32,770 bases of DNA from assembly GCA_017309275.1 (NCBI GenBank), contig JAFKLT010000081.1:1-32770 (forward strand), written 5' to 3'. This stretch comes from Sphingomonadales bacterium. GTDB lineage: Bacteria > Pseudomonadota > Alphaproteobacteria > Sphingomonadales > Sphingomonadaceae. Shown one piece after another: positions 1,796-30,271 of this stretch. Position numbers and translations under genes: made by a program. Under the pieces are notes generated by a model, which did no database searches, was not told the origin of the DNA, and saw only the letters and a program-made list of their open reading frames with translations. The first letter of the stretch is position 1. Each line of letters opens with the position of its first letter.

Positions 1796-1910
1796 TTATT
1801 TTCCTTCTTGTGCTTGGGCGCCGGCGCAAAACGGCGACGCATTTTCTGCCCCGTTGATCAGAGGATTCGTGCCGAACGCCCACGGGCATCGACATCCGGG
1901 ATCTAATCTG

Positions 1911-1937
1911 CAATGGTGCCAAAATCTGGCACCATTG
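1911..1937. promoter_or_regulatory. Perfect inverted repeat, candidate operator
   Basis: Arms CAATGGTGCCA (1911-1921) and TGGCACCATTG (1927-1937) are exact reverse complements separated by five bases. The repeat lies in the 160-base divergent region between the alpha/beta hydrolase and the WYL regulator, 18 bases before the regulator's ATG. Its position and symmetry suit an operator for the dimeric regulator next door; that assignment is inference. Confidence 0.6.
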
Positions 1938-1955
1938 TTTGTTGGCCCACCGAAA

Positions 1956-2690
1956 ATGAATGTTCATAGTCGACAAGAGGCGGTGATCCGAAGCCTGCGA
2001 CGGAACGGATCATCGACGATTGCCGAGCTTTCGGTTCAGGTGGGTGCATCCCGAAGAACATTGCTGCGCGACATCAGCGCGTTGCGAGAGCAAGGCTTTG
2101 TCATTCATTCCGAACCCGGTCGTGGCGGGGGATTGCGACTTGACCCGGGTTCGGTTCAGACGACGCCTCGCCTTTCGGTGACGGAGGTATTTGCTCTTCT
2201 GATCGGCGTGGCGGCCATGCGCGCGGCGGGAAACCTCCCTTTTGCAAGTCTGGCAGATGCCGGACTTGCAAAGATCGAGAAGGCATTGCCGTCCGACAAG
2301 GTCCGCGATTTGCGGCAGTTTCTGGACTGCCTGTATGTCGGGGAACTCGCGCCGCAAGTCGACAGAAGCAATATCGGTACGATGGACCGCGCACTGCTTC
2401 CCGAATTCGAGGCCGCCTTTCTTCAGCGCCTGCATCTGCAGTTCCATTATCAAGATGCGAAAGGCGAACGCAGCATGCGTGTTGTCGAACCGCAGGCGAT
2501 GCTGATCTTGCCGCCACTTTGGTATCTGGTTGCCTGGGATCCCGAGCGCGATGATTTCCGGCATTTCCGCATGGACCGAATCCGCGAACCGCGCTGTATG
2601 GAGGGAAGGGCGTTTCGGAAACGGAAGGTCGTTTTCGATAAGGGGGTTCGACCATTGGAAGGTGCAATGGAGGCGGAAACTCAAGATTGA
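1956..2690 (+). CDS. YafY-type HTH/WYL-domain transcriptional regulator
   Basis: A 244-residue cytoplasmic regulator. Residues about 5-60 form a DeoR-type winged helix-turn-helix (TIAELSVQVGASRRTLLRDI followed by the wing GFVIHSEPGRGGGLRL). The C-terminal third carries a WYL domain, with the literal motif in LPPLWYLVAWD and the conserved FRMDRI segment. WYL domains in this family bind ligands or nucleic acid and control nearby genes. I chose the ATG at 1956 because the family begins just before the HTH; an in-frame upstream extension to 1854 would run through the inverted repeat at 1911-1937 and is not family-like. It is divergent from the alpha/beta hydrolase, its most likely target. The C-terminus is shorter than in many YafY proteins but shows no frameshift. 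Confidence 0.85.
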   Translation: MNVHSRQEAVIRSLRRNGSSTIAELSVQVGASRRTLLRDISALREQGFVIHSEPGRGGGLRLDPGSVQTTPRLSVTEVFALLIGVAAMRAAGNLPFASLADAGLAKIEKALPSDKVRDLRQFLDCLYVGELAPQVDRSNIGTMDRALLPEFEAAFLQRLHLQFHYQDAKGERSMRVVEPQAMLILPPLWYLVAWDPERDDFRHFRMDRIREPRCMEGRAFRKRKVVFDKGVRPLEGAMEAETQD

Positions 2691-2818: not shown

Positions 2819-3619
2819 CTAGAATTTTGGCAGTCGGGTGCCGGGCGCAGGCGGATCGATCGGCGCTCCGGCAAAGCATTGCGCCACAGCCATCCACTTC
2901 TTGGCAACCGGACCGACAACTTCAAGTTGCGTGTCGGCAATATTGCGGACTTGTGTAACGACGAAACAGAACGCGGTAGCGTCCCCACATACATGGTCTG
3001 TCGTGTTCTCCTCATTCCATGTCCAGACGTCGCCCGAAGGCGCCGTCAGTTCGACACGTGGAGCAGGTCCGGGGAGCTCAAGGCCTCGGTTGACGAAGGT
3101 CCAGCCGAACGTCTTGATGCCGATGGTGGCAACATGCTTTACACGATCAGTGTGAGTGCGTGTGGTTTCGGCAAGGTCGAAGATCGCTTGCGCATGGGAC
3201 CAGGTCTCCATGAACCGCGCTGTCAGGAACATGCGCGCGCCCATGTCCGGCCCGAACCATGGAAGCCGGCTCGACGGATCCAGGTCGGAGAATTTTGCGG
3301 CCAGCTCCACGGCTGTCGCGTGCCAGGCATCGATCAGTTCGGAAGCACTGAGACCCGCAAGATTTTCCCGAGCAACCGCTTGATGGTCCTTTCCCTGCTG
3401 AAAGCTCGCCGCCAGGCGATTGCGCTCGTGCCCGAAAGCCTCGCGCCCCTCCGCCGATTTCAGGCCGACCAGATCGAACAAGTGAAGATGTGCTACGACA
3501 TCCCAGGGAGTCCATTTCATGAACCCCGTTTCCTGGGCCCAGACTTCCTCTGGAAGCCCTTGGAATACGGTATGGAGATAGTTCACTTCCGCAAGGAAGT
3601 CGTCGCAAATTAGCTTCAT
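2819..3619 (-). CDS. TIGR03084-like DinB/maleylpyruvate isomerase-fold protein
   Basis: A 266-residue protein resembling the TIGR03084 family, whose N-terminal half has the DinB / mycothiol-dependent maleylpyruvate isomerase fold. Supporting segments are WTPWDVVAHLHLFD, with a putative metal-binding His, LPWFGPDMGARMFLTARFME followed by TWSHAQAIFD, and a C-terminal VELTAPSGDVWTW then DFC-like TAFCFVVTQ module. Members occur in actinobacterial and sphingomonad catabolic loci, but their reaction is not established. I chose the start at 3619 because the family begins with an M..ICDDF-type segment; the frame is open to 3673, which nearly abuts the stop of the amidohydrolase gene. It lies downstream of that gene on the same strand and probably shares its transcript. 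Confidence 0.78.
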   Translation of the reverse strand: MKLICDDFLAEVNYLHTVFQGLPEEVWAQETGFMKWTPWDVVAHLHLFDLVGLKSAEGREAFGHERNRLAASFQQGKDHQAVARENLAGLSASELIDAWHATAVELAAKFSDLDPSSRLPWFGPDMGARMFLTARFMETWSHAQAIFDLAETTRTHTDRVKHVATIGIKTFGWTFVNRGLELPGPAPRVELTAPSGDVWTWNEENTTDHVCGDATAFCFVVTQVRNIADTQLEVVGPVAKKWMAVAQCFAGAPIDPPAPGTRLPKF

Positions 3620-3676
3620 GGCATGGTCCTGGTTGGGTCGGGGGATGGCAAGCTTGCCTTGGCAACTCATCATGGG

Positions 3677-4573
3677 TCACGCGGGGGCTGCGGCCAACAG
3701 GCCGTCCAGCTTGTAGACCGCGTGGGCGTTCCTGCTCAGAAAGTACGGCCACGCTTCGTCGGAAAGCGACACATCGTCCATTTCACGAAAAATTCGCTCG
3801 TAAGAAAGGGCTGGATAATAGCCCGCGAAGAGGATTTTCTCCTTCCCGCGCTTGTTCGCAAATTCGATGATGTTTTTTGCGTAGTGCTTGGGTGCCCAAG
3901 CGGAGGTCGAATAATATAGGTTGGGCCATTTGAGCAGCATTTTGACGCACAGATCTGTCCACGGGTCGCCGCCGTGGCGCATGACTATTTTAAGCTCGGG
4001 AAAGAACCATGCGACTTCGTCCAATAATCCCGGGTACTGGCATTTATAAGGCACGCGCGGACCCGGCACGCCGACGAGCATGTTGATGGGTATGTCGAGT
4101 TCGCAACATTTGGCGTAAATCGGATACCAGCGTCTATCGTCGATCGGGACCTGGGGGTTCAACAGGCAAGGCGCTCCCGCAGCGGCCACGATGTTCGGGT
4201 GGAGTTTTACGATTTCTTCCAGCCGCCGTACCCCATCCATGCTCATATTGGGGTCGGTGCCCACCTCGCCAAGGAAGCGACCGGGGTGCTTCTCGAACAG
4301 GGTCAGCGTGTTTTCGGGTTGATGAATATCCACATGAATCATTGCCATCCGGACACCGAACCGGTCCATCATCTCGACGACCGTGTCCGGGTCGACGGCC
4401 TGGCCCATTCGATCCGGCGCGTCTTTGAAAAGATATTGTGCGGGGTGGTGAGAAAAATCCTCCGAAGCTTTGTCCCGCATCAACTTGCGAGCATCGGACA
4501 TGCCCATGCCGGCCTGTCCATTCGGAAGGTCCATCATGAGGTCAATTACAGGAATGTCTAACGGACGGGCCAC
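3677..4573 (-). CDS. Amidohydrolase_2-fold protein with degenerate metal site
   Basis: A 298-residue TIM-barrel protein of the amidohydrolase_2 group (ACMSD / 4-oxalomesaconate hydratase / decarboxylase relatives). Family-like segments include FGVRMAMIHVD, HPGRFLGEVGTDPNM, LKIVMRHGGDPW and a C-terminal SRNAHAVYKL. The usual N-terminal HxH is replaced by VIDLMMDLP, the mid-barrel His is absent from NMLVGVPGP, and the TDYP-type Asp is replaced in FAGYYPALSYER; only the His of RHGG is obvious. A standard mono-zinc site therefore seems absent and the true activity is unclear. The start is GTG at 4573 with a GAGGAGA site just upstream. It leads a two-gene minus-strand unit with the TIGR03084-like gene and is divergent from the TonB receptor, sharing an operator-like palindrome. 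Confidence 0.8.
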   Translation of the reverse strand: MARPLDIPVIDLMMDLPNGQAGMGMSDARKLMRDKASEDFSHHPAQYLFKDAPDRMGQAVDPDTVVEMMDRFGVRMAMIHVDIHQPENTLTLFEKHPGRFLGEVGTDPNMSMDGVRRLEEIVKLHPNIVAAAGAPCLLNPQVPIDDRRWYPIYAKCCELDIPINMLVGVPGPRVPYKCQYPGLLDEVAWFFPELKIVMRHGGDPWTDLCVKMLLKWPNLYYSTSAWAPKHYAKNIIEFANKRGKEKILFAGYYPALSYERIFREMDDVSLSDEAWPYFLSRNAHAVYKLDGLLAAAPA

Positions 4574-4787: not shown

Positions 4788-4801
4788 TATATCATGGTAT
4801 A
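4788..4801. promoter_or_regulatory. Operator-like palindrome, site 1
   Basis: The 14-mer TATATCATGGTATA is symmetric except for one base pair around CATG. Close matches occur at 10929-10942 and 12319-12332. It sits in the divergent region between the amidohydrolase gene and the TonB receptor, 66 bases before the receptor ATG, so it could control both directions. The nearby TetR protein is the likely ligand-sensing partner (inference). Confidence 0.6.
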
Positions 4802-4866
4802 ATCTAGATCACGATCTAACACGATGCAAGAACGAACCAGCATCGGTCTTTTTGAGGGGATATGGC

Positions 4867-7065
4867 ATGTACCGTTCATCGGGTCTTTTTCTGTATGCGG
4901 CGACGGGTTCGGCGCTTTTCATGGGTACGGCTAATGCTCAGGAAAATAATCAGGAAATCGTCGTCACGGCGGAGCGTCGCGAGCAGGCCATCCAAAGCGT
5001 TCCAGGCGCCATTTCGGCTCTTACGACACAGCAACTGGAACTGCAGGGGATCGATTCCGCGTCCAGCTTGCAATTCAGCGTCCCCGGAGTTTTCGTTGGT
5101 GAGCAATCGACGCAAACCAGCGTAACGATCCGCGGTGTCGGTCCTACGCCGCAGGGGCAGTCAGGCGTATCTTCGGTTGCCGTCAGCGTAGATGGCGTCA
5201 ATCAATCGCGAACGGTAGCGATGGGGTTTGCGCAAGTTGACCTGAAGCGGATCGAGGTCGCCCGCGGGCCTCAAGGCACTCTGTATGGCCGCAATGCGAC
5301 AGGCGGCGCGATCAATTATATCACGCAAGAACCGACCGGTTCGTTCGAGGGCGAATTGTCCGCCGGCTATGCCGAATATAATGAATTCAGCGGAAGCGGT
5401 GTCGTGAATATCCCCATCGGCGACCGCATCCGCTCGCGACTGGTTGTCGATTACAAGAACCGCCGGGACGGGTTTGTCGATAACATCTCGCCCGGTGGCG
5501 AGGATGTCGATGCGAGGGAGCAGCTTGCGGGGCGCTTGCGGATCGCCGTTGACCTGGCGGATACGCTGGAGCTGGACGTCAATCTTTCGAGGATGAGCAT
5601 AAACCACACGGGGAATTATCTGAGCCAACTCAACACGCCGACCCCCGAGGCCCTTGCGGCCAGCCCGATCCTGGCAGCCGCGACCTTCTATCCCGGCCGG
5701 AACAGGGTTACGGGCGCCAACGAGCCTAATCGCAACAGGCTCCTGTATGATGTCGCGAGCGCGACGCTCAAATGGGATTTGCCTTTCGCGACGTTCAAAT
5801 CGATCACCGCGTATCAAAAATATAAAAGCAGGACGAGGGCCGACGGGGACGGCCTCGATCTCTCCCTTTCGTCGCTGGCAGGAAGGAATATCAACAAAAC
5901 CTTCTCTCAGGAATTGACCGTCGCAGGTTCGACGGACAGCTTGAGCTGGGTCGTTGGCGCCTTCTACTCGAACGAAGACGACCAGAACGAGTTTCATATC
6001 AGATTCACGGAAAACCTTTTGGGGGCTGGGCCTGACTCAGGCCTCGACTATCTGCAGCCGAAATATTCCCAAAAAACTTACGCGGCTTTTGCGGATCTGA
6101 CCTACTCTGTAACCGACAAGATCGACCTGATCGCTGGCATCAGATATACTAAAGACAAGTTGCACGCGGAATACAGCTCATCGTTCTTTGCCAATAATTT
6201 CCCGAATATATTCACTCCCCCTCCTCCATCTACGATAGCCGTCGCATTCCCTCTATGTCCGGCGACAGTGGATGAACCGGATTTCAGCTCTACGACGCCC
6301 CGTATTGGCGTTCAGTACAAACTTGCTGATAAGCAAATGGTGTACTTCAAATACTCGCAAGGATACAAAGCTGGTGGCGTAAATGTCTATAGCTGTAATA
6401 ATACATATGAGCCAGAGGAAGTTAAATCTTACGAGCTTGGCTACAAGAGTACGCATTTTGACGGCGCACTCGTATTAAATGCGACAGCATTCCACTATGA
6501 TTATACGAACTTTCAGGTTTCACAGATCATTAACAGCACTCTTTCGACTACAAACGCGTCATCTGCTATAGTCGACGGCCTTGAACTCGAAACCGTTCTG
6601 GCGCCCGGTGACCATTTTCGGGTTAGTGCGAGCTACGCCTATATTCATGCTCGCTACGATGAGTTCATGAACATCGACGGCCTCAATCCCTCGGCTGGCC
6701 TGCAGAATTTGTCGGGCAATTTGCTCAACGGTTCGCCGAAACATTCCGGAAATGTCACGGTCTCCTACAAGTCGGACGACTACAGTTGGGGCAATTTGAC
6801 GGGGGCGGTCAGCCTGAGCAGCCGGTCTCGTACATTCTTTCGGGAGTTCAACGCGAAAGAAGATTCACAGAAGGGGTTCACCTTGGTGAACCTAAGCCTC
6901 GTCTGGAAAAGCCCGGATGATGCCTATCAGGTCCGTCTCTATGCGAATAATGTTACCGATAAGGCCTACTACCAGTTTCTGGCTGCCGAAGACGTTATCG
7001 GCAGCCGATACGGATATTGGGGCCCTCCGCGTCAGGTTGGATTCGAGGTAACCACACGGTTTTGA
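4867..7065 (+). CDS. TonB-dependent outer-membrane receptor
   Basis: A 732-residue outer-membrane receptor for energised uptake of a specific substrate. It begins with a signal peptide (hydrophobic core GLFLYAATGSALFMGTA, cleavage expected near ANAQ), then a QEIVVTAERR stretch typical of sphingomonad receptors. Next comes a plug domain (SVPGVFVGEQSTQTSVTIRG, RIEVARGPQGTLYGRNATGG) and a long beta-barrel ending in VGFEVTTRF with the C-terminal Phe expected for barrel assembly. Length is normal. I chose ATG 4867 because GAGGGGA lies 7 bases upstream; an in-frame TTG at 4852 is less likely. The receptor leads the plus-strand group with a serine hydrolase and a carrier, suggesting it imports the catabolic substrate. 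The substrate cannot be deduced. Confidence 0.93.
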   Translation: MYRSSGLFLYAATGSALFMGTANAQENNQEIVVTAERREQAIQSVPGAISALTTQQLELQGIDSASSLQFSVPGVFVGEQSTQTSVTIRGVGPTPQGQSGVSSVAVSVDGVNQSRTVAMGFAQVDLKRIEVARGPQGTLYGRNATGGAINYITQEPTGSFEGELSAGYAEYNEFSGSGVVNIPIGDRIRSRLVVDYKNRRDGFVDNISPGGEDVDAREQLAGRLRIAVDLADTLELDVNLSRMSINHTGNYLSQLNTPTPEALAASPILAAATFYPGRNRVTGANEPNRNRLLYDVASATLKWDLPFATFKSITAYQKYKSRTRADGDGLDLSLSSLAGRNINKTFSQELTVAGSTDSLSWVVGAFYSNEDDQNEFHIRFTENLLGAGPDSGLDYLQPKYSQKTYAAFADLTYSVTDKIDLIAGIRYTKDKLHAEYSSSFFANNFPNIFTPPPPSTIAVAFPLCPATVDEPDFSSTTPRIGVQYKLADKQMVYFKYSQGYKAGGVNVYSCNNTYEPEEVKSYELGYKSTHFDGALVLNATAFHYDYTNFQVSQIINSTLSTTNASSAIVDGLELETVLAPGDHFRVSASYAYIHARYDEFMNIDGLNPSAGLQNLSGNLLNGSPKHSGNVTVSYKSDDYSWGNLTGAVSLSSRSRTFFREFNAKEDSQKGFTLVNLSLVWKSPDDAYQVRLYANNVTDKAYYQFLAAEDVIGSRYGYWGPPRQVGFEVTTRF

Positions 7066-7165
7066 GTGTGACGGTTGTTCACAAGTCCATTTAGGTGCTG
7101 TCCGGCGCTTTTTGCGGCGTGCCGGTCATGGCGATCGGGGGCAATATTCAGTGCAAGGAAAAAAG

Positions 7166-8338
7166 ATGTCAGAACGTATCGATAGAATTGCTGCGGTCGC
7201 CGAGCGCTATGTAAATTCCGGGAGCTTTTCCAGCATCGAATGGGCTGTCGATGTTGACGGCCGCGCATTGAGTGCCGGAAAATTCGGCAAGGCGGATCAG
7301 GAGGCTGGAACCGGGATCGCTGACGGCGCCCTGTATCGCATCTACTCGATGACCAAGCCGGTGATTTCTGTTCTGGCCTTGCAACTGATCGAACAAGGTC
7401 GCCTGAGATTTACAGATATCCTTCCGCAGTTTGACGAACGCTTCAGTCGGATGGTCGTGCTGACATCGGACGGACAGATTCAACAGGCCCAAAGGCCGAT
7501 CACGGTCGAGGACCTGCTGACCCATCGTGCTGGATTTACCTATGAATTCATCCACGGTTGCCACATCGCGCAATATTACAGAGAAGCGAAGGTCTCGTAC
7601 AACGACGACAGTCTCGACGAGATGATGGGCAGGCTGTCAACGCTACCCCTGGGTTTTCATCCAGGCCAGAACTATGGCTACGGCGTTTCGACCGATGTGT
7701 TGGCACATGTGATAGAAAGGGCGACCGGCAGCGATGTCGGTACGCTGCTCGCAGAACATATCTTCGGGCCCCTGGGCATGAAAGATACGGCTTATCATGT
7801 GCCGGAGGAAAAGCAGTCGCGGCTGGTCAAGATGTATGGCCGCGAAGGATTCCTGAATCCGCCAGCGATCACTTTGCCCGGAAAGCAGGAACTGGTTCCG
7901 GTCGATGTGGTCCCCTACTATCCGGTCAATAAGAAGACATTCCGTCGTGGCGGGATAGGATTATACTCGACGCTCGCCGACTATCGCAAATTCGCGGCCA
8001 TGATGCTGGACGGCAAATCGCCCGATGGCGAGATACTGTTGTCTCGCAAGATGATCGAGATGATGTCGGCGAACCGTATTCCCGCGCACCTTCAGCCGCT
8101 TTGGCCAGGCGTCATGGAGGGATATGGCTGGGGATTGGTTGGTCGCTTGCTCATCGACCAGGGGCGAACGACGAACCTGTCCGGCGTGGGCGAGTTTGGC
8201 TGGGCCGGCGGAGCTTCGACCTTTTTTTGGGTTGATCCAAAGGAGCGTATGACCGGCGTCATCCTGACTCAATATCTGGGCTCATGGTTGCCTCTCGCCA
8301 ATGATCTGCGCACGGCTGCATATCAGGCGTTAACCTGA
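7166..8338 (+). CDS. Serine hydrolase, beta-lactamase/esterase (EstB-like) family
   Basis: A 390-residue class C beta-lactamase-fold hydrolase of the kind often annotated as esterase EstB or 1,4-butanediol diacrylate esterase. The nucleophile motif SMTK (Ser61, Lys64) is present, followed by a VEDLLTHRAGFTYEF segment and a YGYGVSTDVLAHVIE stretch in the position of the second (YxN-like) motif. The C-terminal GEFGWAGGASTFFWVDP segment fills the third-motif region. There is no clear signal peptide, so it is probably cytoplasmic. The ATG at 7166 follows AAGGAAAA. It lies 100 bases after the TonB receptor, likely co-transcribed. Together with the receptor it suggests hydrolysis of an imported ester or lactone, but the substrate is unknown. 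Confidence 0.87.
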   Translation: MSERIDRIAAVAERYVNSGSFSSIEWAVDVDGRALSAGKFGKADQEAGTGIADGALYRIYSMTKPVISVLALQLIEQGRLRFTDILPQFDERFSRMVVLTSDGQIQQAQRPITVEDLLTHRAGFTYEFIHGCHIAQYYREAKVSYNDDSLDEMMGRLSTLPLGFHPGQNYGYGVSTDVLAHVIERATGSDVGTLLAEHIFGPLGMKDTAYHVPEEKQSRLVKMYGREGFLNPPAITLPGKQELVPVDVVPYYPVNKKTFRRGGIGLYSTLADYRKFAAMMLDGKSPDGEILLSRKMIEMMSANRIPAHLQPLWPGVMEGYGWGLVGRLLIDQGRTTNLSGVGEFGWAGGASTFFWVDPKERMTGVILTQYLGSWLPLANDLRTAAYQALT

Positions 8339-8361
8339 CGTCGCTGCCTCGATCGACATCA

Positions 8362-8394
8362 TCGCTGCTTTCCGGACAAAGCCGGATGCAGCGA
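8362..8394 (+). terminator. Stem-loop after serine hydrolase gene
   Basis: Arms TCGCTGC-TT-TCCGG and CCGGA-T-GCAGCGA pair around a six-base loop, 24 bases after the serine hydrolase stop. No clear T-tract follows, so it may be a transcript-stabilising hairpin rather than an intrinsic terminator. Confidence 0.45.
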
Positions 8395-8470
8395 CAGGCG
8401 TTGCTACGAAATCTAGTCCCGCCACAGTACTCGAGTTGAGTATGGAGCGCACTTACTGAGTGAGGACGCT

Positions 8471-9934
8471 ATGAATACATCGCGCCTTAAAACAACAACC
8501 AAGATCATTTACGGGATCGGTCAGGGGGCTGAAGGGGTCAAGATGGCCGCTTTCTCGGTATTTCTGATTTTTTACTACAATCAGGTCCTTGGACTATCCG
8601 GATCTTTGGCCGGGCTGGCAATAGGTATAGCCCTCGTTTTCGATGCGGTTTCTGACCCACTCGTGGGTTCGCTTTCGGATCGATGGCAATCTCCCAAGGG
8701 TCGCCGCCACCCATTCATGTATGCGGCCATTCTTCCCTTTGCCATCTCGATATTTCTCCTCTTTTCTCCTCCGCAAAGCCTTCCGGAAGCTGGCCTGTTT
8801 GCCTGGCTAACGCTTTTCGCAGTGCTCACCCGCGTTGCGATGGCATTGTTCCATGTGCCGCATCTATCGTTGGGCGCCGAACTCTCGTCCGATTTCGATG
8901 AACGCACCACCATTGTCAGCTACCGGTTCTTTTTCAGTACGTTAGGGACATTGATCGCCGTCGGCTTGGGTTTTGGTGTCTTTCTTGCCGACACCAGCAA
9001 CGGGCGGGGGCTGTTCAATCCCATCCAATACTCAATTTTTGCGGCTACGCTGTCCCTCGTGATATTTTTCGTGATGACGACGAGCTCGCTCGGAACGCAG
9101 AAATTTGCATCCCGGCTCTACCAGGCGCGATCCAGCCACCCAGCTTGGCGACAATCCGGCCTGTTTCGTCAGATGGTAAGGGATTTGCGTGCCGCATTAC
9201 GCAATCGGTCATTCCGCGGATTATTCTTCGGACTGTTGGCCACTGCCGTCATGATCGGTGTGGATAATTCTCTAAGTTTGCACATGAATTCATTCTTTTG
9301 GGGGCTGTCGAGCGAGCAGAACATGCCTTTCTTCATCGCCAGCCCGATAGGGCTCTTGGTTGGCGTGTTGTTTACGCACAGGCTCGGTATCTTGTTCGAC
9401 AAGAAGCCCCTCATAATTTGGGGCACCGGCGGCTGGCTCGCGTGTCAGATAACCCCGGTCATGCTTCGCTTCTTCGACAGTTTCCCCACGAACGGATCAA
9501 CCGAATTGGTGTGGGTGCTAGTCTCGTTCAAATTCCTGCAAGGCATGATCCTCGCGCAAATCATCGTGCCGTTCAACTCCATGGTCGCTGACATCGTCGA
9601 CGAACATCAGCTCGAAACCGGCGAGCGTAATGAAGGCATATTCTTCGGGGCCGTGGGATTCTCTGGCAAAGCCACTACGGGCTTGGGAAGTTTCGCGTCG
9701 GGAGTGGCGCTGGATCTGATATCCTGGCCAAAAGGCTCGGCTATACGCTCGGCGTCCGACGTCCCGGCAGAGACCATAACGGCGCTTGGAATGGTTTATG
9801 GGCCAAGCATCGCAATTTTTGGCGTGGTCTCTATCTGGTTCTACTCTCATCACAGTTTGAGCCGCAGCAGGCATCGCGAGATTCAGGCAGAGCTTCAGAG
9901 GCTACAGCGAGCGAGCGATGCCGCACCGCTTTGA
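8471..9934 (+). CDS. GPH-family (MelB-like) MFS transporter
   Basis: A 487-residue polytopic membrane protein of the glycoside-pentoside-hexuronide:cation symporter group of the major facilitator superfamily. The first helices carry IFYYNQVLGLSG and VFDAVSDPLVGSLSDRW, followed by SPKGRRHPFMY, the characteristic loop of this family. About twelve hydrophobic segments are visible, with a cytoplasmic loop rich in basic and polar residues near 210-235. Length is normal. The ATG follows TGAGG with suitable spacing. Such carriers import sugars, glycosides or, in sphingomonads, varied small organic molecules with a cation. It is placed after the TonB receptor and serine hydrolase and would complete inner-membrane uptake. 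The 130-base gap holds a stem-loop and a short TACTC/GAGTA inverted repeat (8428-8442), so it may have its own promoter. Confidence 0.87.
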   Translation: MNTSRLKTTTKIIYGIGQGAEGVKMAAFSVFLIFYYNQVLGLSGSLAGLAIGIALVFDAVSDPLVGSLSDRWQSPKGRRHPFMYAAILPFAISIFLLFSPPQSLPEAGLFAWLTLFAVLTRVAMALFHVPHLSLGAELSSDFDERTTIVSYRFFFSTLGTLIAVGLGFGVFLADTSNGRGLFNPIQYSIFAATLSLVIFFVMTTSSLGTQKFASRLYQARSSHPAWRQSGLFRQMVRDLRAALRNRSFRGLFFGLLATAVMIGVDNSLSLHMNSFFWGLSSEQNMPFFIASPIGLLVGVLFTHRLGILFDKKPLIIWGTGGWLACQITPVMLRFFDSFPTNGSTELVWVLVSFKFLQGMILAQIIVPFNSMVADIVDEHQLETGERNEGIFFGAVGFSGKATTGLGSFASGVALDLISWPKGSAIRSASDVPAETITALGMVYGPSIAIFGVVSIWFYSHHSLSRSRHREIQAELQRLQRASDAAPL

Positions 9935-10022
9935 CTTCAAGGGGATTTGGTTCGGCGCGATCGCCAGAACTGGCCGGAGCTGTACCAAGCGCGATCAAGG
10001 GCGCCGTGAGAATGGTCTGGTA

Positions 10023-10709
10023 TCAATCCGTCGTTGAGCGGGTACTGCCGGAGGGCAATGAATCCAAAATCGGCGAGACCTGCTTCTGCAATTTGGCCAG
10101 CTTGCGATTTGATTTTGCCCGAAATGCATCCGGATAAAATGCGTTTAGCATAAGCTCGACACCCAGCTCGACGCGGATCATCCATTCGTCCGACGAGATC
10201 GTGCCGCCCGACCATAAAATGACGGTTCCGAACCAGAACGTCTCCAGCTGCTCTGCCAGAACGGAAGGCATGGCATGAGGGGAAAGCTGGCCACGTTGGA
10301 TTTCCAGTTCGATGCGTCGTTTAATCCCTTCAAGAGCCGTCCGCAGGGTATGGCTGCGTGGTGGAATGGCTTGCAGTACCACCCTGAAAACAGGTTGATA
10401 GATGTCCTGTTTGGAGATGTAATAGGCCGTGATATCGCGAAACCCCTCCATGACGGTTTCGGGTTCCGCGACGCCATGACTGTATATGTCGCTCATGCTT
10501 CTGGCAACGAGCGCATTGAGAATGCCCTCTTTGGATTTGAAGTGATTGAACGGCGTCGCCGGGCTCACGCCAGCGCAACTCGCGACTTCGCGAACCGTCA
10601 TATCCGTGTCGCCACGGGTCTTGATCAGGCTGGCCGTTGCATCCAGAATTTGACTACGAATGTTGCGCCTCCGGCGTTCATAGCCATCAATCGTGCCATT
10701 CGTATCCAT
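10023..10709 (-). CDS. TetR-family transcriptional regulator
   Basis: A 228-residue regulator, convergent with the GPH carrier and divergent from the beta-propeller gene. The N-terminal TetR DNA-binding domain is clear: RSQILDATASLIKTRG, then MTVREVASCAGVSPATPFNH and FKSKEGILNAL. The C-terminal part, about 150 residues, is a helical ligand-binding and dimerisation domain without recognisable specificity. I favour ATG 10709, which has AAGGA close upstream, over ATG 10724, which has no visible binding site; the choice does not affect the domain. An AT-rich stretch of about 100 bases precedes it. A palindrome at 10925-10946 lies in its divergent region and recurs before the TonB receptor and the Rieske operon, which makes this protein the best local candidate for regulating all three. 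Confidence 0.88.
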   Translation of the reverse strand: MDTNGTIDGYERRRRNIRSQILDATASLIKTRGDTDMTVREVASCAGVSPATPFNHFKSKEGILNALVARSMSDIYSHGVAEPETVMEGFRDITAYYISKQDIYQPVFRVVLQAIPPRSHTLRTALEGIKRRIELEIQRGQLSPHAMPSVLAEQLETFWFGTVILWSGGTISSDEWMIRVELGVELMLNAFYPDAFRAKSNRKLAKLQKQVSPILDSLPSGSTRSTTD

Positions 10710-10734
10710 AATTCCTTGACCCATTTCGTGTTAT

Positions 10735-10835
10735 CGGATTTTAAATTTAAATATATTGGATAATATTTATTGCATTAGAGTTTTTATTCTAAAATTATTA
10801 CAAGAATACAGAAATATGCACAAACAGCGGCATTC
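10735..10835. promoter_or_regulatory. AT-rich divergent promoter region of the TetR gene
   Basis: About 100 bases of strongly AT-rich sequence, unlike the GC-rich surroundings, lie directly upstream of the TetR gene. They contain the palindrome TTTAAATTTAAA and an ATATT-GGAT-AATAT dyad. These probably hold the TetR promoter and possibly an autoregulatory site; specific promoter boxes cannot be assigned with confidence. Confidence 0.4.
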
Positions 10836-10924
10836 TCTATCTGCCCGATCTCGGTATCTGGGCGAGAATTCCGAGTCAACCAACCCACCTTTTCCACATC
10901 GCGATAGCCGGTCCAAAATGGCTT

Positions 10925-10946
10925 GAATTGTATCTTGGTATAATTC
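10925..10946. promoter_or_regulatory. Operator-like palindrome, site 2
   Basis: A 22-base imperfect palindrome with perfect outer arms GAATT and AATTC surrounds the core TGTATCTTGGTATA (10929-10942), which matches sites 1 and 3. It lies 42 bases before the preferred start of the beta-propeller gene and about 215 bases upstream of the TetR gene. Its overlap with the longest open frame of the propeller gene (from 10928) argues for a downstream start. Confidence 0.6.
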
Positions 10947-10987
10947 ACCCTTTGGCCATCGGATGCAACCGGGAAATGGGAGGGCTC

Positions 10988-11866
10988 ATGTACAGGGCGG
11001 ATTTGGATTGGGCGGCATATGGCTTTGGAGAATTCTCATTGGGGATATCCGACGTCACTTTCGACCGTTCCGGATATTTGTGGACAGTGGATCGAGGTGG
11101 TCGCGCCTGGGGGGATCGCGATGCCGAGCAACGGATTGCGACCGATGTGCTGCGATGCTGGTCGCCGAATGGTCAAATGGAAAAATCATTCGGAGCGGGG
11201 CTGTTCGTCATGCCGCACAGTGTCACGGCTTGCGAGGATGGGCTGCTGGTAACCGATGTCGGACTCCATCAGGTGCTCAAGCTGACGTGGCAAGGTGCGG
11301 TCGAGTGGTCGCTTGGCAACCCCCGATCTCCCACGGATGCGCTCGATGGATTCAACCTGCCGACAGATGTGGCCGTATGTGAGGATGGCGGATTCTTCGT
11401 ATCCGATGGTTACGGCAACGCCCGGGTGCTGAAGTTCGGGGACGATCTTGGTTTGGAGGCAAGTTGGGGGCAGCAGGGCGGGGCGACCGGCGAATTTAGA
11501 CTGCCCCACGCCTTGGACATTCTTGATGGATCCACTGTCGTCGTAGCTGACCGAGAGAATGCTCGAATCCAGATGTTCGATTTTGCCGGCGTGCATTTCA
11601 AGACGATCAAGTCCGATACGCTCGGAAAACCCTATGGAGTGAGTGTCCGCGGCCGTCGAATTTACGTGGCCGACAATGGGTTCCCGGAAGAGAAGCGGGC
11701 GGGGGTGTCGATCTTCGATCTGGACAGTGGCGAAACGCATCGTTTTGGCGCGTTGGGCAAGGGCGCGGGCGAAATGCTGGGGCCGCACAGCCTTGCCGTC
11801 GATTGCAACCACGACATATTTGTCGCCGACGTGGTTCGCGGACTTCTGAAGTTCACCCCGGCTTAG
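10988..11866 (+). CDS. NHL/SMP-30-like beta-propeller protein
   Basis: A roughly 292-residue protein made of repeated propeller blades of the NHL / peptidylglycine lyase-like type. Repeats are visible as LGISDVTFDRSGYLWTVDRG, LPTDVAVCEDGGFFVSDGYG, LPHALDILDGSTVVVADREN, YGVSVRGRRIYVADNG and GPHSLAVDCNHDIFVADV. No signal peptide or membrane segment is seen. Such proteins can be lactonases, lyases or binding scaffolds, and the reaction cannot be assigned. The start is uncertain: ATG 10976 and ATG 10988 are both possible, and GGGAGGG lies just before the second. The in-frame start at 10928 is unlikely because it falls inside the operator-like palindrome. The gene is divergent from TetR and carries the shared motif, so it probably belongs to the same regulon as the Rieske operon. 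Confidence 0.8.
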   Translation: MYRADLDWAAYGFGEFSLGISDVTFDRSGYLWTVDRGGRAWGDRDAEQRIATDVLRCWSPNGQMEKSFGAGLFVMPHSVTACEDGLLVTDVGLHQVLKLTWQGAVEWSLGNPRSPTDALDGFNLPTDVAVCEDGGFFVSDGYGNARVLKFGDDLGLEASWGQQGGATGEFRLPHALDILDGSTVVVADRENARIQMFDFAGVHFKTIKSDTLGKPYGVSVRGRRIYVADNGFPEEKRAGVSIFDLDSGETHRFGALGKGAGEMLGPHSLAVDCNHDIFVADVVRGLLKFTPA

Positions 11867-12003
11867 GGCATCGACTCCCGCACCGCCCGGCGCCGGTTTT
11901 GTCATCGGACCTTCGAGCTCTCTTCCCGATACAGGCACCGGGTCTTTCCGCGAGCGATCTGCACGGCCGCGCGGCAATGCCGGACATGAAGGCGCCGATG
12001 GCC

Positions 12004-12026
12004 TGCCCAGCGAGGCTGGCTGGGCA
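12004..12026 (+). terminator. Stem-loop downstream of propeller gene
   Basis: TGCCCAGC and GCTGGGCA pair perfectly around a seven-base loop, about 140 bases after the propeller stop. No T-tract follows, so its role as terminator is only possible. Confidence 0.35.
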
Positions 12027-12318
12027 ACTCACTTAGCTTGCGGCAAACCTCGGTGCCGTCACCGCGCCCCGATCGGTGGCCTAAGCGCCCCGGTCGCCGA
12101 GTTCGGCCGTCCACACGTGCTAGATCGCGCTCGACATATCTGACGACGAAGATCGGTTTCCTCTGCGTTGGGTTCGGTTCCTTCACGATGTCGGTTTCCC
12201 GTTTCTTCGCGGAGTACTTCTGCTGTTTTCCGTCCTTTCTGCCGGCCACACGCCGACGTGAACCGATGACGGAAATGGCGAGGCAAGCCATTCCGGACAA
12301 CTCTCTTGCAGATTGTAT

Positions 12319-12332
12319 TATATCATGCTATA
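12319..12332. promoter_or_regulatory. Operator-like palindrome, site 3
   Basis: The 14-mer TATATCATGCTATA differs by one base from site 1 at 4788-4801 and is extended by one more matched pair (T...A) on the outside. It is 50 bases before the preferred start of the Rieske oxygenase and overlaps the likely promoter, a position suited to repression. Confidence 0.6.
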
Positions 12333-12381
12333 AAATATAGCGTAGCATATGTTGCTGCCATCAGCGGAGGTTCTTTCTGGT

Positions 12382-13395
12382 ATGCTCGCAAGAGACCACT
12401 GGTACATTGCTTGTCCCTCATTGAAGCTGGCCGAACGAAAGCCGCTGGCTGCGCAATTCGGCGACCTTCAGGTTGTCGTGTTTCGCGGCAAGAACGGGGA
12501 GCCGCATGCGCTGCTCGATCGATGCTGTCATCGGGGCGTCAAGCTTTCTCGCGGACGGGTCAGCGAGAACGGCTGCATTGCATGCGGCTATCATGGCTGG
12601 GAATATGACGCTCAAGGGAATGTCCAACATATTCCGTCGCTTGGTGATGGAAAAATGCGGTCGAAATTCCAGGTACCAAGTTTCCATGTTCGCGAAACGC
12701 ATCACTATGTCTGGGTCTGGATTCCTGGCGAGAGCGAGGCGCCGACCTATGAGCCGGAATTGCGAGGCTTCGCGCCTGGAACCTGGATCCAGTTTTCAGG
12801 AATCTGGAAATGCAATGTGTCGGCTGCGGTCGAAAACCAGTTGGACACCGCCCATCCGGTCTTCTCGCACCCGACCACATATCCGACATTCGAGACCGAT
12901 CGGGAACTGAATCCCGAACTTTTCCTCTCGACATGGCGAGGCCATGTCGAGGACGGCAACAAGGTCGAGATATATTTTCTGCCGACCGACGGCACTCCCG
13001 TTCAGAGGCCCACGATCGAAAATCCGGGATCGAACATTACGGCGTTCGAGATGCCTTACAGGAACTATGTGTTCCTTACCTCGGCCAATGTGCGGGCGAT
13101 TTACAACTGGATACCCTTGTCCGAAGACACGGGCCGATTGGAATATATGTCGCTTTCCTGGCCACCTAAAGGGCCCGGCGATTTCAAGGTGCGAATCTGG
13201 GACGAGGAACTGGAAATTCTCGCGCAGGACCGTGTCCTGCTCGAAAGTGCGCAGGGGACCTACAATCCGTCCAGGGACAAGCATGTTCCGGCAGACAGGC
13301 CGCCTTTGGCCGCGCGACAGATCATTCACCATGCGCATCAATTGGCGGCAGCACCCCCGAAAGACCAAGAGTTCGAATTCGAGGTGTACGCCTGA
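12382..13395 (+). CDS. Rieske non-heme iron oxygenase, alpha subunit
   Basis: A 337-residue oxygenase of the Rieske mononuclear-iron family, closest in architecture to single-component-type alpha subunits such as vanillate or dicamba O-demethylase oxygenases. The 2Fe-2S Rieske ligands are Cys48, His50, Cys68 and His71 (CCHRG ... CGYHGW). The mononuclear iron motif is N152-x2-D155-x2-H158-x4-H163 (ENQLDTAHPVFSH), with bridging Asp155. No small beta subunit gene is nearby, consistent with an alpha-only trimer. I chose ATG 12382, 11 bases after a GCGGAGG site, because the family begins just before WYIACP; ATG 12349 lacks a binding site. The stop overlaps the next gene's ATG by one base, so the aldehyde dehydrogenase is translationally coupled. 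Electrons probably come from the ferredoxin at 23277. Substrate unknown. Confidence 0.92.
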   Translation: MLARDHWYIACPSLKLAERKPLAAQFGDLQVVVFRGKNGEPHALLDRCCHRGVKLSRGRVSENGCIACGYHGWEYDAQGNVQHIPSLGDGKMRSKFQVPSFHVRETHHYVWVWIPGESEAPTYEPELRGFAPGTWIQFSGIWKCNVSAAVENQLDTAHPVFSHPTTYPTFETDRELNPELFLSTWRGHVEDGNKVEIYFLPTDGTPVQRPTIENPGSNITAFEMPYRNYVFLTSANVRAIYNWIPLSEDTGRLEYMSLSWPPKGPGDFKVRIWDEELEILAQDRVLLESAQGTYNPSRDKHVPADRPPLAARQIIHHAHQLAAAPPKDQEFEFEVYA

Positions 13396-14805: not shown

Positions 14806-14819
14806 CGTTTCATGAAACG
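14806..14819. repeat. Perfect palindrome over the WYL-2 start codon
   Basis: CGTTTCATGAAACG is self-complementary, with the ATG of the second WYL regulator at its centre (14812). It could form a small hairpin masking the start codon, or bind a protein. At 14 bp in an otherwise tight junction it could also be chance. Confidence 0.4.
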
Positions 14820-15603
14820 CGTAGAGCGCCTCTTTCGACTGATACTTCTGATGCGCGAGGGAAGGGTTCTTACCGGCCATTATCTCTCGGAAAAACTGGG
14901 TGTATCGAGCAGGACGGTCTATCGGGATATTAGCGACTTGGTCGATTCCGGTGTTCCGATCGATGGCCAGTCCGGTGTAGGCTTTCTGCTTCGAGACGAG
15001 CGCCAGTTGCCGACGGTCATATTCACCGACGACGAGTTGCAAGCTCTTGCGCTGGGCGCGGAGATGGTTCGGACTTGGTCGGATCGAGAGCTGGGCAATG
15101 CGAGCGAGAACGCCATACGCAAGCTCGAAACGGTTCTGCCTAGAAATCTGAAAGCCAAAATTCACCTCGACGGCTTCAAAGCTCATGGCGTTCCAATGCC
15201 GGAGGATAATTCCGAGAAACTGAAAATGCTTCGCGCTTCCATCGAGGCCGGAGAGAAACTGGTTCTATCCTATTTGTCTCATGGAAATGTCGTGAGCCGT
15301 CGAACCATCAGGCCCTTGCTGTTGGGGCGCTGGTACGGGGTCTGGTCGGTGGGCGCATGGTGCGAGCTGCGCGGTGAATTTCGCACATTCCAGGCCGACC
15401 GAATAATTGGCGTCGAAAAGACAGAGGAGTCTTTCGAGCACGCGGCGGACTGCGATCACCATGCTTACCTGACCAGTCAAACTCGCCTGGGCCTCTTCCG
15501 GAAGCAAAACGGTGGTCCGGGGCATGGTGCGTCGCGGCCGATGGACGGTTCCAGATCGCCGCCGCCGACACCCACCGCATTAGAGACAATGACCACATTA
15601 TAA
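14812..15603 (+). CDS. YafY-type HTH/WYL-domain regulator (second copy)
   Basis: A 263-residue regulator embedded in the catabolic operon. The N-terminal winged HTH is RLFRLILLMREGRVLTGHYL then LGVSSRTVYRDISDLVDSGV. The WYL-like segment is in RRTIRPLLLGRWYGVWSVGA and FRTFQADRI. The C-terminal tail after about residue 225 is Pro/Thr-rich and not typical. The ATG lies 7 bases after the aldehyde dehydrogenase stop, with no clear Shine-Dalgarno, which suggests reinitiation after the upstream gene. A perfect 14-bp palindrome (14806-14819) overlaps its start codon. It is a different subtype from the WYL protein at 1956. Its place inside the operon suggests feedback on this cluster. Confidence 0.85.
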   Translation: MKRVERLFRLILLMREGRVLTGHYLSEKLGVSSRTVYRDISDLVDSGVPIDGQSGVGFLLRDERQLPTVIFTDDELQALALGAEMVRTWSDRELGNASENAIRKLETVLPRNLKAKIHLDGFKAHGVPMPEDNSEKLKMLRASIEAGEKLVLSYLSHGNVVSRRTIRPLLLGRWYGVWSVGAWCELRGEFRTFQADRIIGVEKTEESFEHAADCDHHAYLTSQTRLGLFRKQNGGPGHGASRPMDGSRSPPPTPTALETMTTL

Positions 15604-17923: not shown

Positions 17924-17964
17924 AAATGATTCATCGCGCTGCCCGTGACGCAGCGTTGCGGCCG

Positions 17965-19386
17965 TTAACGTGTCGGGCGGTCGGTTCTCGCCATGCTCAG
18001 CACCTGGAGCTGAGTGAATTCGTTCAGGCCTTCCTCTCCGAGTTCTGCGCCCACACCCGAAAGCTTTGCACCGCCGAAAGGGATGTGGGGCTGCAAGTCG
18101 CCGTGCTTGTTGATCCAGACGCTGCCGCTCTCGATCTGCTCCGCCACACGCCAAGCCTTTTCGGCATCGCTTGCCCAAACGGAGCCGCCGAGGCCGTAGA
18201 TGGACGCGTTGGCGCGAGCGACGACTTCGGCGGGATCGGCATATTTGATCACCGGCATGACCGGGCCGAACTGTTCTTCGTCGACAAGTTTCGAACCGTC
18301 GGTGATGTCGCGTACGATGGTGGGCTCGATGAAATAGCCTCTGTTGCCCTTGCGGCTGCCGCCGGCGATGATCTTGCCGTCTTCCTTGGCGCTGTCGATG
18401 AAGCCGAGGATCTTCTCGAACTGCTGCCTGTTCTGTACGGGTCCCATCTGGACGCCCTGTTCCAGACCATCGCCGACTACGGCCTCGGAGGCGAGCTTCG
18501 CGAGCTCGTTACACATCGGATCGTAGATGCTTTCGTGCACATAGATCCGTTTGGCCGCAATGCACACCTGACCGGCGTTTTGCATGGCCGCGGCGTAAAT
18601 CTTGGGTGCCATCGCCTTGGGGTCGACATCGTCGAGCACGATCAAGGCGTCATTGCCGCCAAGTTCCAGCGAAATGCGTTTCAGAGCATCGGCCGCGCCG
18701 GCCATGACCTTCTTTCCGGTTTCGGTGGAGCCCGTGAAGCTGATCTTGCGAATACCCGGATGAGCCGTCATTGCGCCGCCCAGATCATTGTTGTCGGCAA
18801 TGATGTTGACCACGCCCGGCGGCACCAGCTCCTTGATAATCTCACCGAACTTAAGGGTGGTGAGCGGTGTAGTCGCCGCGGGTTTCACGATCAGGGTGTT
18901 GCCGGCCAACAGCGCCGGGGGAACCTTGAAGGCCATCAAGACGATCGGGAAGTTCCAGGGAATGATGCAGCCGACGACACCCAGCGGCTTGCGGCGCACC
19001 TCGACTCGCCCAGTTGTATCGTCCGCCAAAATCTTCGGCGCCAGGTCCATGCCCGCAAAGTGACGGAAGAAGGCTTGAGCCCCGAAAATCTCGCCTCTTG
19101 CATCCTTGAGCGGTTTTCCCTGCTCCTGCACCAGAAGGCGGGCGAGGTCCTCGCTATTCTCTTGGATAGCGTCGGCGATGGCAATCAGAACCTTGCGGCG
19201 ATCGTCGATCGGTTTCGCACTCCAGGCTGGGAGCGCGGCTGTCGCTGCGGCCACGGCCTCATCCAGTTGCCTCTCCGACGCGCGCGCGCACGTGGCGAAA
19301 GCTTCCTCTGTAGCGGGATTGATGACTCCCATCGTATCATCGCCATCCACCATGTCGCCGTCGATCAGCAGCTTGTAGTTCAACAT
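17965..19386 (-). CDS. NAD(P)-dependent aldehyde dehydrogenase (second)
   Basis: A 473-residue aldehyde dehydrogenase. The IIPWNFP motif (Asn145), FTGSTETG, the general base Glu241 in LELGG and the nucleophile Cys275 in NAGQVCIAAKR are intact, as is the C-terminal IPFGGAKLSGVG. AAGGAAG lies before the ATG. It is downstream of the enoyl-CoA hydratase on the same strand with about 110 bases between, so they may be co-transcribed. Like the first aldehyde dehydrogenase it probably serves the pathway, and two such enzymes suggest two aldehyde intermediates or different chain lengths. The succinate-semialdehyde/aromatic aldehyde type and the fatty-aldehyde type cannot be separated by eye. Confidence 0.93.
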   Translation of the reverse strand: MLNYKLLIDGDMVDGDDTMGVINPATEEAFATCARASERQLDEAVAAATAALPAWSAKPIDDRRKVLIAIADAIQENSEDLARLLVQEQGKPLKDARGEIFGAQAFFRHFAGMDLAPKILADDTTGRVEVRRKPLGVVGCIIPWNFPIVLMAFKVPPALLAGNTLIVKPAATTPLTTLKFGEIIKELVPPGVVNIIADNNDLGGAMTAHPGIRKISFTGSTETGKKVMAGAADALKRISLELGGNDALIVLDDVDPKAMAPKIYAAAMQNAGQVCIAAKRIYVHESIYDPMCNELAKLASEAVVGDGLEQGVQMGPVQNRQQFEKILGFIDSAKEDGKIIAGGSRKGNRGYFIEPTIVRDITDGSKLVDEEQFGPVMPVIKYADPAEVVARANASIYGLGGSVWASDAEKAWRVAEQIESGSVWINKHGDLQPHIPFGGAKLSGVGAELGEEGLNEFTQLQVLSMARTDRPTR

Positions 19387-19497
19387 CTAATCTTCCTTTA
19401 TCCGGATGTGACGCTGCCGATGAGGCGCGTTGTTCGCATGATTTGGGCTCAGAAAACTTCGTGGGTATTTTCTGCGAATGCCAAATATGGAACGAAA

Positions 19498-20289
19498 CTA
19501 CCGCCCTTTGAATTCCGCGGCCCGTCGCTCGACGAATGATTTCACGCCCTCTTCGGCGTCTTCGGTTGCGGCGAGCATCGCCTGGATTTTGTCCATTTCG
19601 GATACCGCAGCATCGAAACCGTTTACGACAAAGCGACGGGATGACGCTTTGGTCTCCTGCACTGCGAGGGGAGCGCATTTTGCGATCTGTTCAGCAACTT
19701 GGATCGCACGGTCGAGTTCATCGCCCAGCGGCACGACTTCCTGAACCAGGCCTATGCGATACGCTTCCGCTGCATCGAATTCATCGGATGTCAGCAGATG
19801 GTACATCGCATTGCCCCAACCGCATCGTTGAACGAAGCGTATGGTGGCTCCGGCTGTCGCATGAATGCCTCGCTTGGGTTCCAGTTGGGAAAAACGAGCA
19901 TTATCGGCGGCAATTACGATATCGCCTGCAATCGCGAGTTCGATGCCAATGGTGTAAGTAATGCCCTTCACAGCAGTGACGATGGGTTTGCGGCAGGCGC
20001 GGCCGAGGCCGGCAACATCTACCAGTTCATTGGTGGGGGTTTCTTCTTCCGCGCTCTTGGTCATGCTTTCTACCCATTTGGGCATATCCAGTCCTGCAGT
20101 GAAATGCTTTCCATGAGCGAAGAGAACGCCAACCCGGAGTTCGCTATCCATATCCAGCCGGGTCATGGCTTCCGCCAGCTGCCTCGCCATCGTGGGAGTG
20201 TAGCCGTTATATTTTTCCGGCCGGTTCAATCCTATCAGATACAGATGGTCCCGTACCTCGGTGGAGATCGACCCTTCATCGTTGCTCAT
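19498..20289 (-). CDS. Enoyl-CoA hydratase/isomerase (crotonase) family protein
   Basis: A 263-residue crotonase-fold enzyme. The first oxyanion loop is in GKHFTAGLDMPKW, and the second region is VTAVKGITYTIGIELAIAGD. Both catalytic-type acids can be placed: Glu117 in GIEL and Glu137 in FSQLEPKRGI, so hydratase activity is plausible. The rest of the fold (ARFSQLEPKRG, SDEFDAAEAYRIGLVQEVVP) is normal for the family. The usual GGG of GGGCE is replaced by TIG, seen in divergent members, so isomerase or hydrolase activity remains possible. It precedes the second aldehyde dehydrogenase on the minus strand. With the acyl-CoA ligase and acyl-CoA dehydrogenase it gives the activation, dehydrogenation and hydration steps of a beta-oxidation-like route; no thiolase is in the window. 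Confidence 0.9.
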   Translation of the reverse strand: MSNDEGSISTEVRDHLYLIGLNRPEKYNGYTPTMARQLAEAMTRLDMDSELRVGVLFAHGKHFTAGLDMPKWVESMTKSAEEETPTNELVDVAGLGRACRKPIVTAVKGITYTIGIELAIAGDIVIAADNARFSQLEPKRGIHATAGATIRFVQRCGWGNAMYHLLTSDEFDAAEAYRIGLVQEVVPLGDELDRAIQVAEQIAKCAPLAVQETKASSRRFVVNGFDAAVSEMDKIQAMLAATEDAEEGVKSFVERRAAEFKGR

Positions 20290-29524: not shown

Positions 29525-30271
29525 CTAGACCAGCATTGACGGGCCAAACCATGTTCGCCGGAACTTCTGATCCTGTAGTTGGGCAAAAAAGGGCAACCAA
29601 AGGCGCGACTGAGCGCTTTCGATCAAATCAAGGTATTCGGGGAAGTTGCGGAGGCGTCGCCAGATCGTTCCGTCGTTCTGACTGAGGCAGAAATCGATCG
29701 CCAATATTGGATCGAGCGGAACTACCGGAATTCGTGGCCCGGGACTCTGCATTAGCCCTTTCCATACCCCGGAAACGGTGCACGGGTTCGCCGGTAGAAA
29801 GTCGACTGCTGCAAATGCATCCTGGGCGTGCCCCCCTCGCTGAAAGTGAAACAGCGGGTGCGGCTCCTTGGAAGGGTTGGCGTTGCCGTCGGCGGCCACG
29901 CGCCTGCAGGGAGCATACATGTCGGTGTCGAGACGCCAATGATCCTGAAGTTCGAACAGCGCGCCGTCCGCGTCGAGATAGCCCTCGACCCGAACCTGGT
30001 ATTCAGCTCGCCAAGGAGCTCCTTCTTCCTCTTTCCACTCGAATTGAAAATCAAGATACGATGCCTGAAGCTCGCAGCCGTTCGGGTGAAGGCCCTGATT
30101 TCTCGGGACGGGAAGGGGTAGCTGGCTTCCCCTCATCTGGCGGTTGTTGATCCACTGACTACGGAACCGGCCCATATTTGTATCGAGCGCGTCCGCGGTC
30201 GCGTTGGTGGCCGGCTCCCGCCGGAGAACTGCGCTCAGCCGTTCAAGCTCATCCGGCAGCGAAAAAACCAT
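29525..30271 (-). CDS. Uncharacterised protein, third gene of the two-component operon
   Basis: A 248-residue soluble protein that I do not recognise. It is rich in aromatic and charged residues, with a central FQFEWKEEEGAPWRAEYQVR segment, an LFELQDHWRLDTDMY segment and a C-terminal DFCLSQNDGTIWRRL and WFGPSML region; no signal peptide, membrane helix or metal motif is evident. Its ATG directly follows the TGA of the preceding gene with no spacing, and GAGGG lies just upstream, so it is translationally coupled to the response regulator. Its conserved position suggests a working partner or effector of the kinase/regulator pair. A defence or stress role is conceivable but not supported by a visible motif. 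Confidence 0.7.
   Translation of the reverse strand: MVFSLPDELERLSAVLRREPATNATADALDTNMGRFRSQWINNRQMRGSQLPLPVPRNQGLHPNGCELQASYLDFQFEWKEEEGAPWRAEYQVRVEGYLDADGALFELQDHWRLDTDMYAPCRRVAADGNANPSKEPHPLFHFQRGGHAQDAFAAVDFLPANPCTVSGVWKGLMQSPGPRIPVVPLDPILAIDFCLSQNDGTIWRRLRNFPEYLDLIESAQSRLWLPFFAQLQDQKFRRTWFGPSMLV

Follow-up and report, generated by a model that had tools for sequence, protein, structure and literature searches.

Three near-identical palindromes stand before the genes of one catabolic region in a Sphingomonadales bacterium, and they raise the question of which protein reads them and how far they tie uptake, oxygenation and regulation into one circuit. The window, which is the whole stretch of DNA analysed here, is one complete contig (C87) of 32,770 bases. 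A sequence-only reading of this stretch had taken the palindromes for three copies of one motif and had named the local TetR protein as the candidate that binds them.

Three palindromes in one catabolic region

On re-reading the sequence, the coordinates of all three palindromes proved correct. The sites and the genes around them are as follows:

4788 to 4801, plus strand: site 1, TATATCATGGTATA, upstream of the TonB receptor gene and about 215 nt from the start of the divergent amidohydrolase gene
10925 to 10946 (core 10929 to 10942), plus strand: site 2 with its outer arms, GAATTGTATCTTGGTATAATTC, upstream of the NHL-propeller gene
12319 to 12332, plus strand: site 3, TATATCATGCTATA, upstream of the Rieske operon
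3677 to 4573, minus strand: amidohydrolase gene (Amidohydro_2), divergent from the TonB receptor gene
4867 to 7065, plus strand: TonB-dependent receptor gene (open reading frame 4852 to 7065, likely ATG at 4867)
10023 to 10724, minus strand: TetR-type regulator gene (likely start at 10709, with AAGGA before the ATG; recognition helix GVSPATPFNHF)
10991 to 11866, plus strand: NHL-repeat beta-propeller protein gene (open reading frame 10928 to 11866, likely ATG at 10991)
12382 to 13395, plus strand: Rieske oxygenase gene (likely ATG at 12382), followed on the same strand by genes for an aldehyde dehydrogenase, a WYL regulator and a CoA-transferase
14812 to 15603, plus strand: WYL-domain regulator gene in the Rieske operon, a rival candidate for binding the sites

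Sites 1 and 3 differ by one base in 14 and site 2 carries the outer arms GAATT/AATTC (10925 to 10946), both as had been claimed. The phrase "three copies" turned out to be loose, since sites 1 and 3 match the motif TATATCATGSTATA of that reading exactly, whereas the core of site 2 (10929 to 10942, TGTATCTTGGTATA) has two mismatches to it. When read from the sequence, sites 1 and 3 each form six of seven dyad pairs. Site 2, the weakest of the three palindromes, owes its symmetry mainly to the outer arms (8 of 11 pairs over 10925 to 10946). A TTG occurs at the same position in the flanks of all three sites. The regulator encoded in the window contains an N-terminal TetR_N domain (PF00440, E 7.2e-11, 42.1 bits against a cut-off of 24).

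A motif that recurred frequently and at random over the genome had been named as a possible refutation, and the genome-wide scan did not produce one. The core TATCWTGSTATA has three matches in the 5,106,904-base genome, which are sites 1 to 3 in one orientation, and its reversed control has none; a single regulon would be expected to show one operator at its three promoters and at no other genomic position, and this is the pattern found for TATCWTGSTATA, with three of three matches in the window. The looser palindrome TATANCNNGNTATA recovered sites 1 and 3 genome-wide plus one further place (C82:25923). Within the window, allowing one mismatch to TATANCNNGNTATA, only sites 1 to 3 were found; as 6 of 200 block shuffles of the window also contained at least three such matches, the loose palindrome alone would be weak evidence. 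The motif of the earlier reading, a pattern derived from the three sites themselves, matched six times in the window when up to three mismatches were allowed, two of the sites counting twice because both strands were searched. The expected number was 1.08, and none of 100 window shuffles reached six. Genome-wide, TATATCATGGTATA at up to three mismatches showed no excess (58 matches versus 69 for the control), indicating that the signal consists of the three sites and not of a genome-wide regulon.

Promoter-like elements and second dyads

Each site contains an extended −10-like element in the sense of the downstream gene, and two of the sites are followed by a second dyad:

4795 to 4803, plus strand: extended −10-like element TGGTATAAT, overlapping site 1
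10936 to 10944, plus strand: extended −10-like element TGGTATAAT, at site 2
12326 to 12334, plus strand: extended −10-like element TGCTATAAA, at site 3
4805 to 4818, no strand: second, weaker dyad TAGATCACGATCTA, exactly 17 bp downstream of site 1, two mismatches to TATANCNNGNTATA
12336 to 12349, no strand: second, weaker dyad TATAGCGTAGCATA, exactly 17 bp downstream of site 3, two mismatches to TATANCNNGNTATA

As read from the sequence, the likely start codons at 4867, 10991 and 12382 lie about 50 to 70 nt downstream of the −10-like elements, so that each site resembles a promoter with an operator superimposed on it, and the right half of the palindrome would serve as an extended −10 element (TGnTATAAW). 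TGSTATAAW occurs 17 times in the whole genome and three of these occurrences are sites 1 to 3, on the strand of the downstream gene. At site 3 the sequence also contains TTGCAG 17 nt upstream of TATAAA. A consensus promoter scan, which requires a −35 hexamer and a T ending the −10, listed none of the three sites.

One explanation of this arrangement is that the sites are merely strong extended −10 promoters, in which TGnTATAAW happens to produce a palindrome that no dedicated regulator reads. It agrees with TGSTATAAW standing in gene sense at all three sites, at a similar distance from the start, with the additional TTGCAG of site 3 and with a different promoter-like element containing TATCATGGTATAA, which recurs elsewhere before genes that are presumably XRE-type. 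We nevertheless consider it unlikely, because the left half TATCW precedes TGSTATAAW only at sites 1 to 3 and is missing from the other 14 genome copies, and because, as described below, the palindrome is associated in other genomes with a particular class of TetR genes. Some TetR-family members act as activators, and the window TetR might thus activate at these sites instead of repressing. Given that the dyad covers the −10-like element, a position that is typical of repression, there is hardly any likelihood in this alternative, which we judge the least probable of all.

The +17 dyad is present at sites 1 and 3 and absent at site 2, and no partner at this distance was found among the other loci tested in the same comparison. 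The chance of a match of this type was about 0.0005 per position, as estimated from shuffled downstream flanks.

Recognition helix and operator in related genomes

An ATP[YF]N recognition helix is present in only one of the 36 TetR domains of the genome, which is that of the window (GVSPATPFNHF). The two best TetR matches in the genus, found by protein comparison only, have GVSFATPFN helices, and TATATCATGATATC and the perfect palindrome TATATCATGATATA stand directly before their genes. We searched the 450 nt before the TetR domain for TATANCNNGNTATA at no more than one mismatch in 131 rows, comprising the best 90 profile-search matches (30 loci plus 60 fetched, with E up to about 2e-12), the TetRs of the genus search and those of this genome. 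Helices were taken by exact coordinates and HMM. The 131 rows were obtained from 134 after L158, L163 and L172 were dropped as repeats; L160 and L162 gave no TetR.

An upstream site of the operator class TATAnCnnGnTATA was found for 23 of 31 ATP[YF]N TetRs (22 of 30 without the window's own), for 1 of 10 TetRs with other TP helices and for 0 of the 90 remaining rows, among which one is a repeat (the L143 row is the same gene as L146). For the TetR on whose account L143 was fetched, the best upstream match has six mismatches to TATATCATGATATA. In the same scan, seven control palindromes of like composition reached at most 2 of 31, 2 of 10 and 3 of 90. The corresponding Fisher values are descriptive, as the first cases were already known when the class was defined and as relatedness, which these values ignore, inflates significance. 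Among the ATP[YF]N TetRs outside the window that had not been retrieved by the motif scan, 9 of 17 had a site and 8 of 17 had none. Overall, 8 of the 31 ATP[YF]N TetRs had no site within the 450 nt upstream, showing that the helix signature is not sufficient. The window TetR counts among those with a site, in this case site 2, located at −293 of the domain with one mismatch; this is unusually far, compared to 67 to 132 nt before the HTH domain in the 22 other cases.

The palindrome itself was followed across the family using the longer TATATCATGNTAT, because the 12-mer TATCWTGSTATA was near background there (60 places, 57 of them outside the window, versus 41 for a control that was counted by eye). 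In 298 family genomes, the matches to TATATCATGNTAT filled 36 rows, palindromes counting on both strands, and reduced to 25 distinct places spread over 22 genomes; the reversed control gave two matches. Outside the window there were 23 places, 13 of which lay just before an ATP[YF]N TetR gene. Among the other 10, one is at the promoter of a flavin monooxygenase gene in G189 and another separates a TonB receptor gene from an MFS gene in G043; at least two are inside open frames. G189 and G071 each also have a site of this class ahead of an epoxide hydrolase gene. Scanning of the divergent neighbour at six ATP[YF]N loci showed a short-chain dehydrogenase at three and a luciferase-like monooxygenase at the other three. 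Of 23 genomes selected because they encode ATP[YF]N or related TetRs, 18 contained perfect TATANCNNGNTATA copies, at 29 sites in all; 15 of these 23 genomes had come from the motif scan, and only 3 of the other 8 carried a perfect copy. Among 23 genomes with no profile-search match, 4 contained perfect copies (4 sites). Control counts, summed by hand, were alike in both sets (47 and 48). In the 22 other ATP[YF]N operators, TGnTATA pointed towards tetR in 17 and away from it in 15, so that both strands of the palindrome can carry an extended −10. These results support the local TetR as the candidate reader of the three sites, since the palindrome class accompanies ATP[YF]N TetR genes and the window's helix is the only one of its kind among the 36.

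The same comparison bears on the WYL-domain regulators of the window (1854 to 2690 and 14812 to 15603), either of which could read the sites while the TetR uses a separate operator of its own. The location of one WYL gene within the Rieske operon fits this explanation, as do other AT-rich dyads in the tetR leader, for example around 10759. It is very improbable, given that 13 of the 23 motif places in related genomes precede TetR genes and that no relative of either WYL protein was detected at 1e-3 in the 49 loci obtained through the motif search or its follow-up. Furthermore, relatives of the second WYL protein were fetched at 19 loci, drawn from 30 listed matches outside the window, and only one of these loci had a site with at most one mismatch (1607 of L075), which lay inside the matched WYL stretch.

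Concerning the origin of the shared specificity, the window TetR is 22 to 27% identical to the three operator-bearing TetRs that were aligned with it. In a tree of 90 TetRs, the operator-bearing proteins fell into two large clades, of 13 and 9 rows, apart from one single row and the window TetR, a long branch of unsure placement outside these clades. The operator label needs four changes on this tree, at least three of them forced by well-supported branches, and gains or losses are alike possible. Since the window TetR is a long unplaced branch with such low identity, its specificity would be carried over from the recognition helix and not from orthology.

An orthologous cluster was not found in the searched genomes and the genus set, so that the sites could not be traced in close relatives. 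The window TetR found only itself in the 298 family genomes at 1e-15 and gave matches in 7 of 80 genus genomes, itself included, at 1e-6; among the genome contigs it matched two distant loci (27% and 23% identity). The Rieske protein retrieved only itself from 397 genomes at 1e-50. A plasmid search with the TetR gave 11 matches of 26.9 to 43.5% identity, the higher ones over about one quarter of the protein. Comparison of plasmids with the first 25 kb of the window detected no near match beyond two short stretches (Novosphingobium, Croceicoccus), which point to a sphingomonad host, and the other plasmid searches yielded only matches under 60%.

Two further arrangements were observed in other genomes. 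At L279 (G262:C2), two full TATAnCnnGnTATA sites 12 bp apart (3431 to 3456) stand before a gene with MarR and GNAT domains. In L036, L042, L054, L087, L088 and L089, GTTAAAGTAGTGAY followed by TATCATGGTATAA precedes regulator genes with RTPGLRREEVA, which we take to be XRE-type.

A candidate circuit and known systems

Altogether, the evidence makes it probable that each of the three palindromes serves as an operator for the TetR encoded in the window and is fused to the promoter that it controls. The sites, the restriction of their core to the window, their overlap with −10-like elements and the link between ATP[YF]N TetR genes and this palindrome in other genomes were observed, and to these we add, as inferences, binding, promoter activity, repression, a ligand and a second dimer. 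When no inducer is present, a TetR dimer on the palindrome would shut the promoter, blocking RNA polymerase at the TonB receptor, propeller and Rieske promoters, and at the receptor gene and the Rieske operon a second dimer may bind to the weaker dyad at +17, covering the start region. TetR would be released by a ligand, which is probably the imported compound or an early product, and the genes for uptake and oxidation would be turned on at the same time. It is thus probable that import and breakdown of one compound are switched together. The earlier proposal of one circuit also included the regulator gene. The comparison supports its uptake and oxygenation part; the part concerning tetR itself is less well supported, as about 220 nt separate site 2 from the likely start codon of tetR (10709) and no site is close to that start. 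Autoregulation of tetR is doubtful because of this distance and because of the other AT-rich dyads in the leader.

In the general picture, TetR-family local repressors bind palindromic operators over a promoter. The window resembles them in its TetR_N domain and in dyad sites on neighbouring promoters, and differs in that site 2 is far from the tetR start. Among the open-licence papers listed, we found no description of the operator class TATAnCnnGnTATA, of its link to the ATP[YF]N helix or of any ATPYN TetR. The excerpts of one report describe PheR of Sphingobium sp. SHPJ-2, a repressor whose loss raises expression of an oxygenase operon and of TonB and TonB-dependent receptor genes, the effect on receptors having been seen by transcriptome; its footprint covers the start region and its operator contains an essential GCAACG (PMC13273656). 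According to these excerpts, PheR is like the window circuit in being a sphingomonad repressor that links catabolism to TonB-dependent uptake, and unlike the window TetR in belonging to the IclR family and using another operator. In the bsd I bile-salt cluster of Caenibius tardaugens, as given in the accessible part of its report, a TetR gene accompanies amidohydrolase and monooxygenase genes, and the palindromes ATAGGGCCATTG and GCATGCGGGATGC were proposed as operators (PMC12882949). The likeness to the window consists in a TetR within a catabolic cluster with an amidohydrolase and in palindromes as putative operators; the palindromes that this part presents are unrelated to the operator class of the window. 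The TetR groups appearing in the extracts of another paper are FabR, FadP, LiuQ, PsrA and RutR (PMC5343134).

A further cluster, in G127 (L289, 4042 to 19484), contains two TonB receptors, two P450s, an amidohydrolase and two TetRs related to that of the window, with TTPFN and VTVFN helices. Similar dyads occupy the gaps of divergent genes, separating TonB receptor from amidohydrolase and P450 from TonB receptor. In contrast to the window, P450s replace the Rieske oxygenase and the dyads match TATANCNNGNTATA only at two mismatches.

A broader model would be that the TP[YF]N-helix TetR class of the family reads one operator, TATAnCnnGnTATA, which doubles as a two-way extended −10 promoter. In different lineages, genes for monooxygenases, dehydrogenases, epoxide hydrolases and TonB receptors would have come under this operator. 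The window would be a multi-promoter case, in which two of three promoters carry a second dimer site one 17-bp step downstream. The sequence comparisons leave the chances of this model evenly balanced. In the circuit proposed for the window, an orphan TetR would be linked with an uptake receptor and an oxygenase operon, forming a unit that can be tested. The circuit also suggests a rule leading from recognition helix to operator, which possibly holds in general and by which the regulons of other TetRs of the family would be predictable from sequence. With knowledge of the ligand, the promoter-operators could be used directly as parts of a sensor.

Other features of the window were also recorded. 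Frames without a Pfam match at 29525 to 31399 (minus strand) adjoin a histidine-kinase-type ATPase gene (31354 to 32409), and two long frames overlap at 17926 to 19539 (plus strand) and 17965 to 19386 (minus strand), the minus one encoding an aldehyde dehydrogenase and the plus one being without a Pfam match. Two WYL-domain regulators occur in one catabolic region (1854 to 2690, and 14812 to 15603 in the Rieske operon). Adjoining the amidohydrolase gene, 2819 to 3673 on the minus strand encodes a protein with a mycothiol maleylpyruvate isomerase N-terminal domain, which is unexpected in a proteobacterium.
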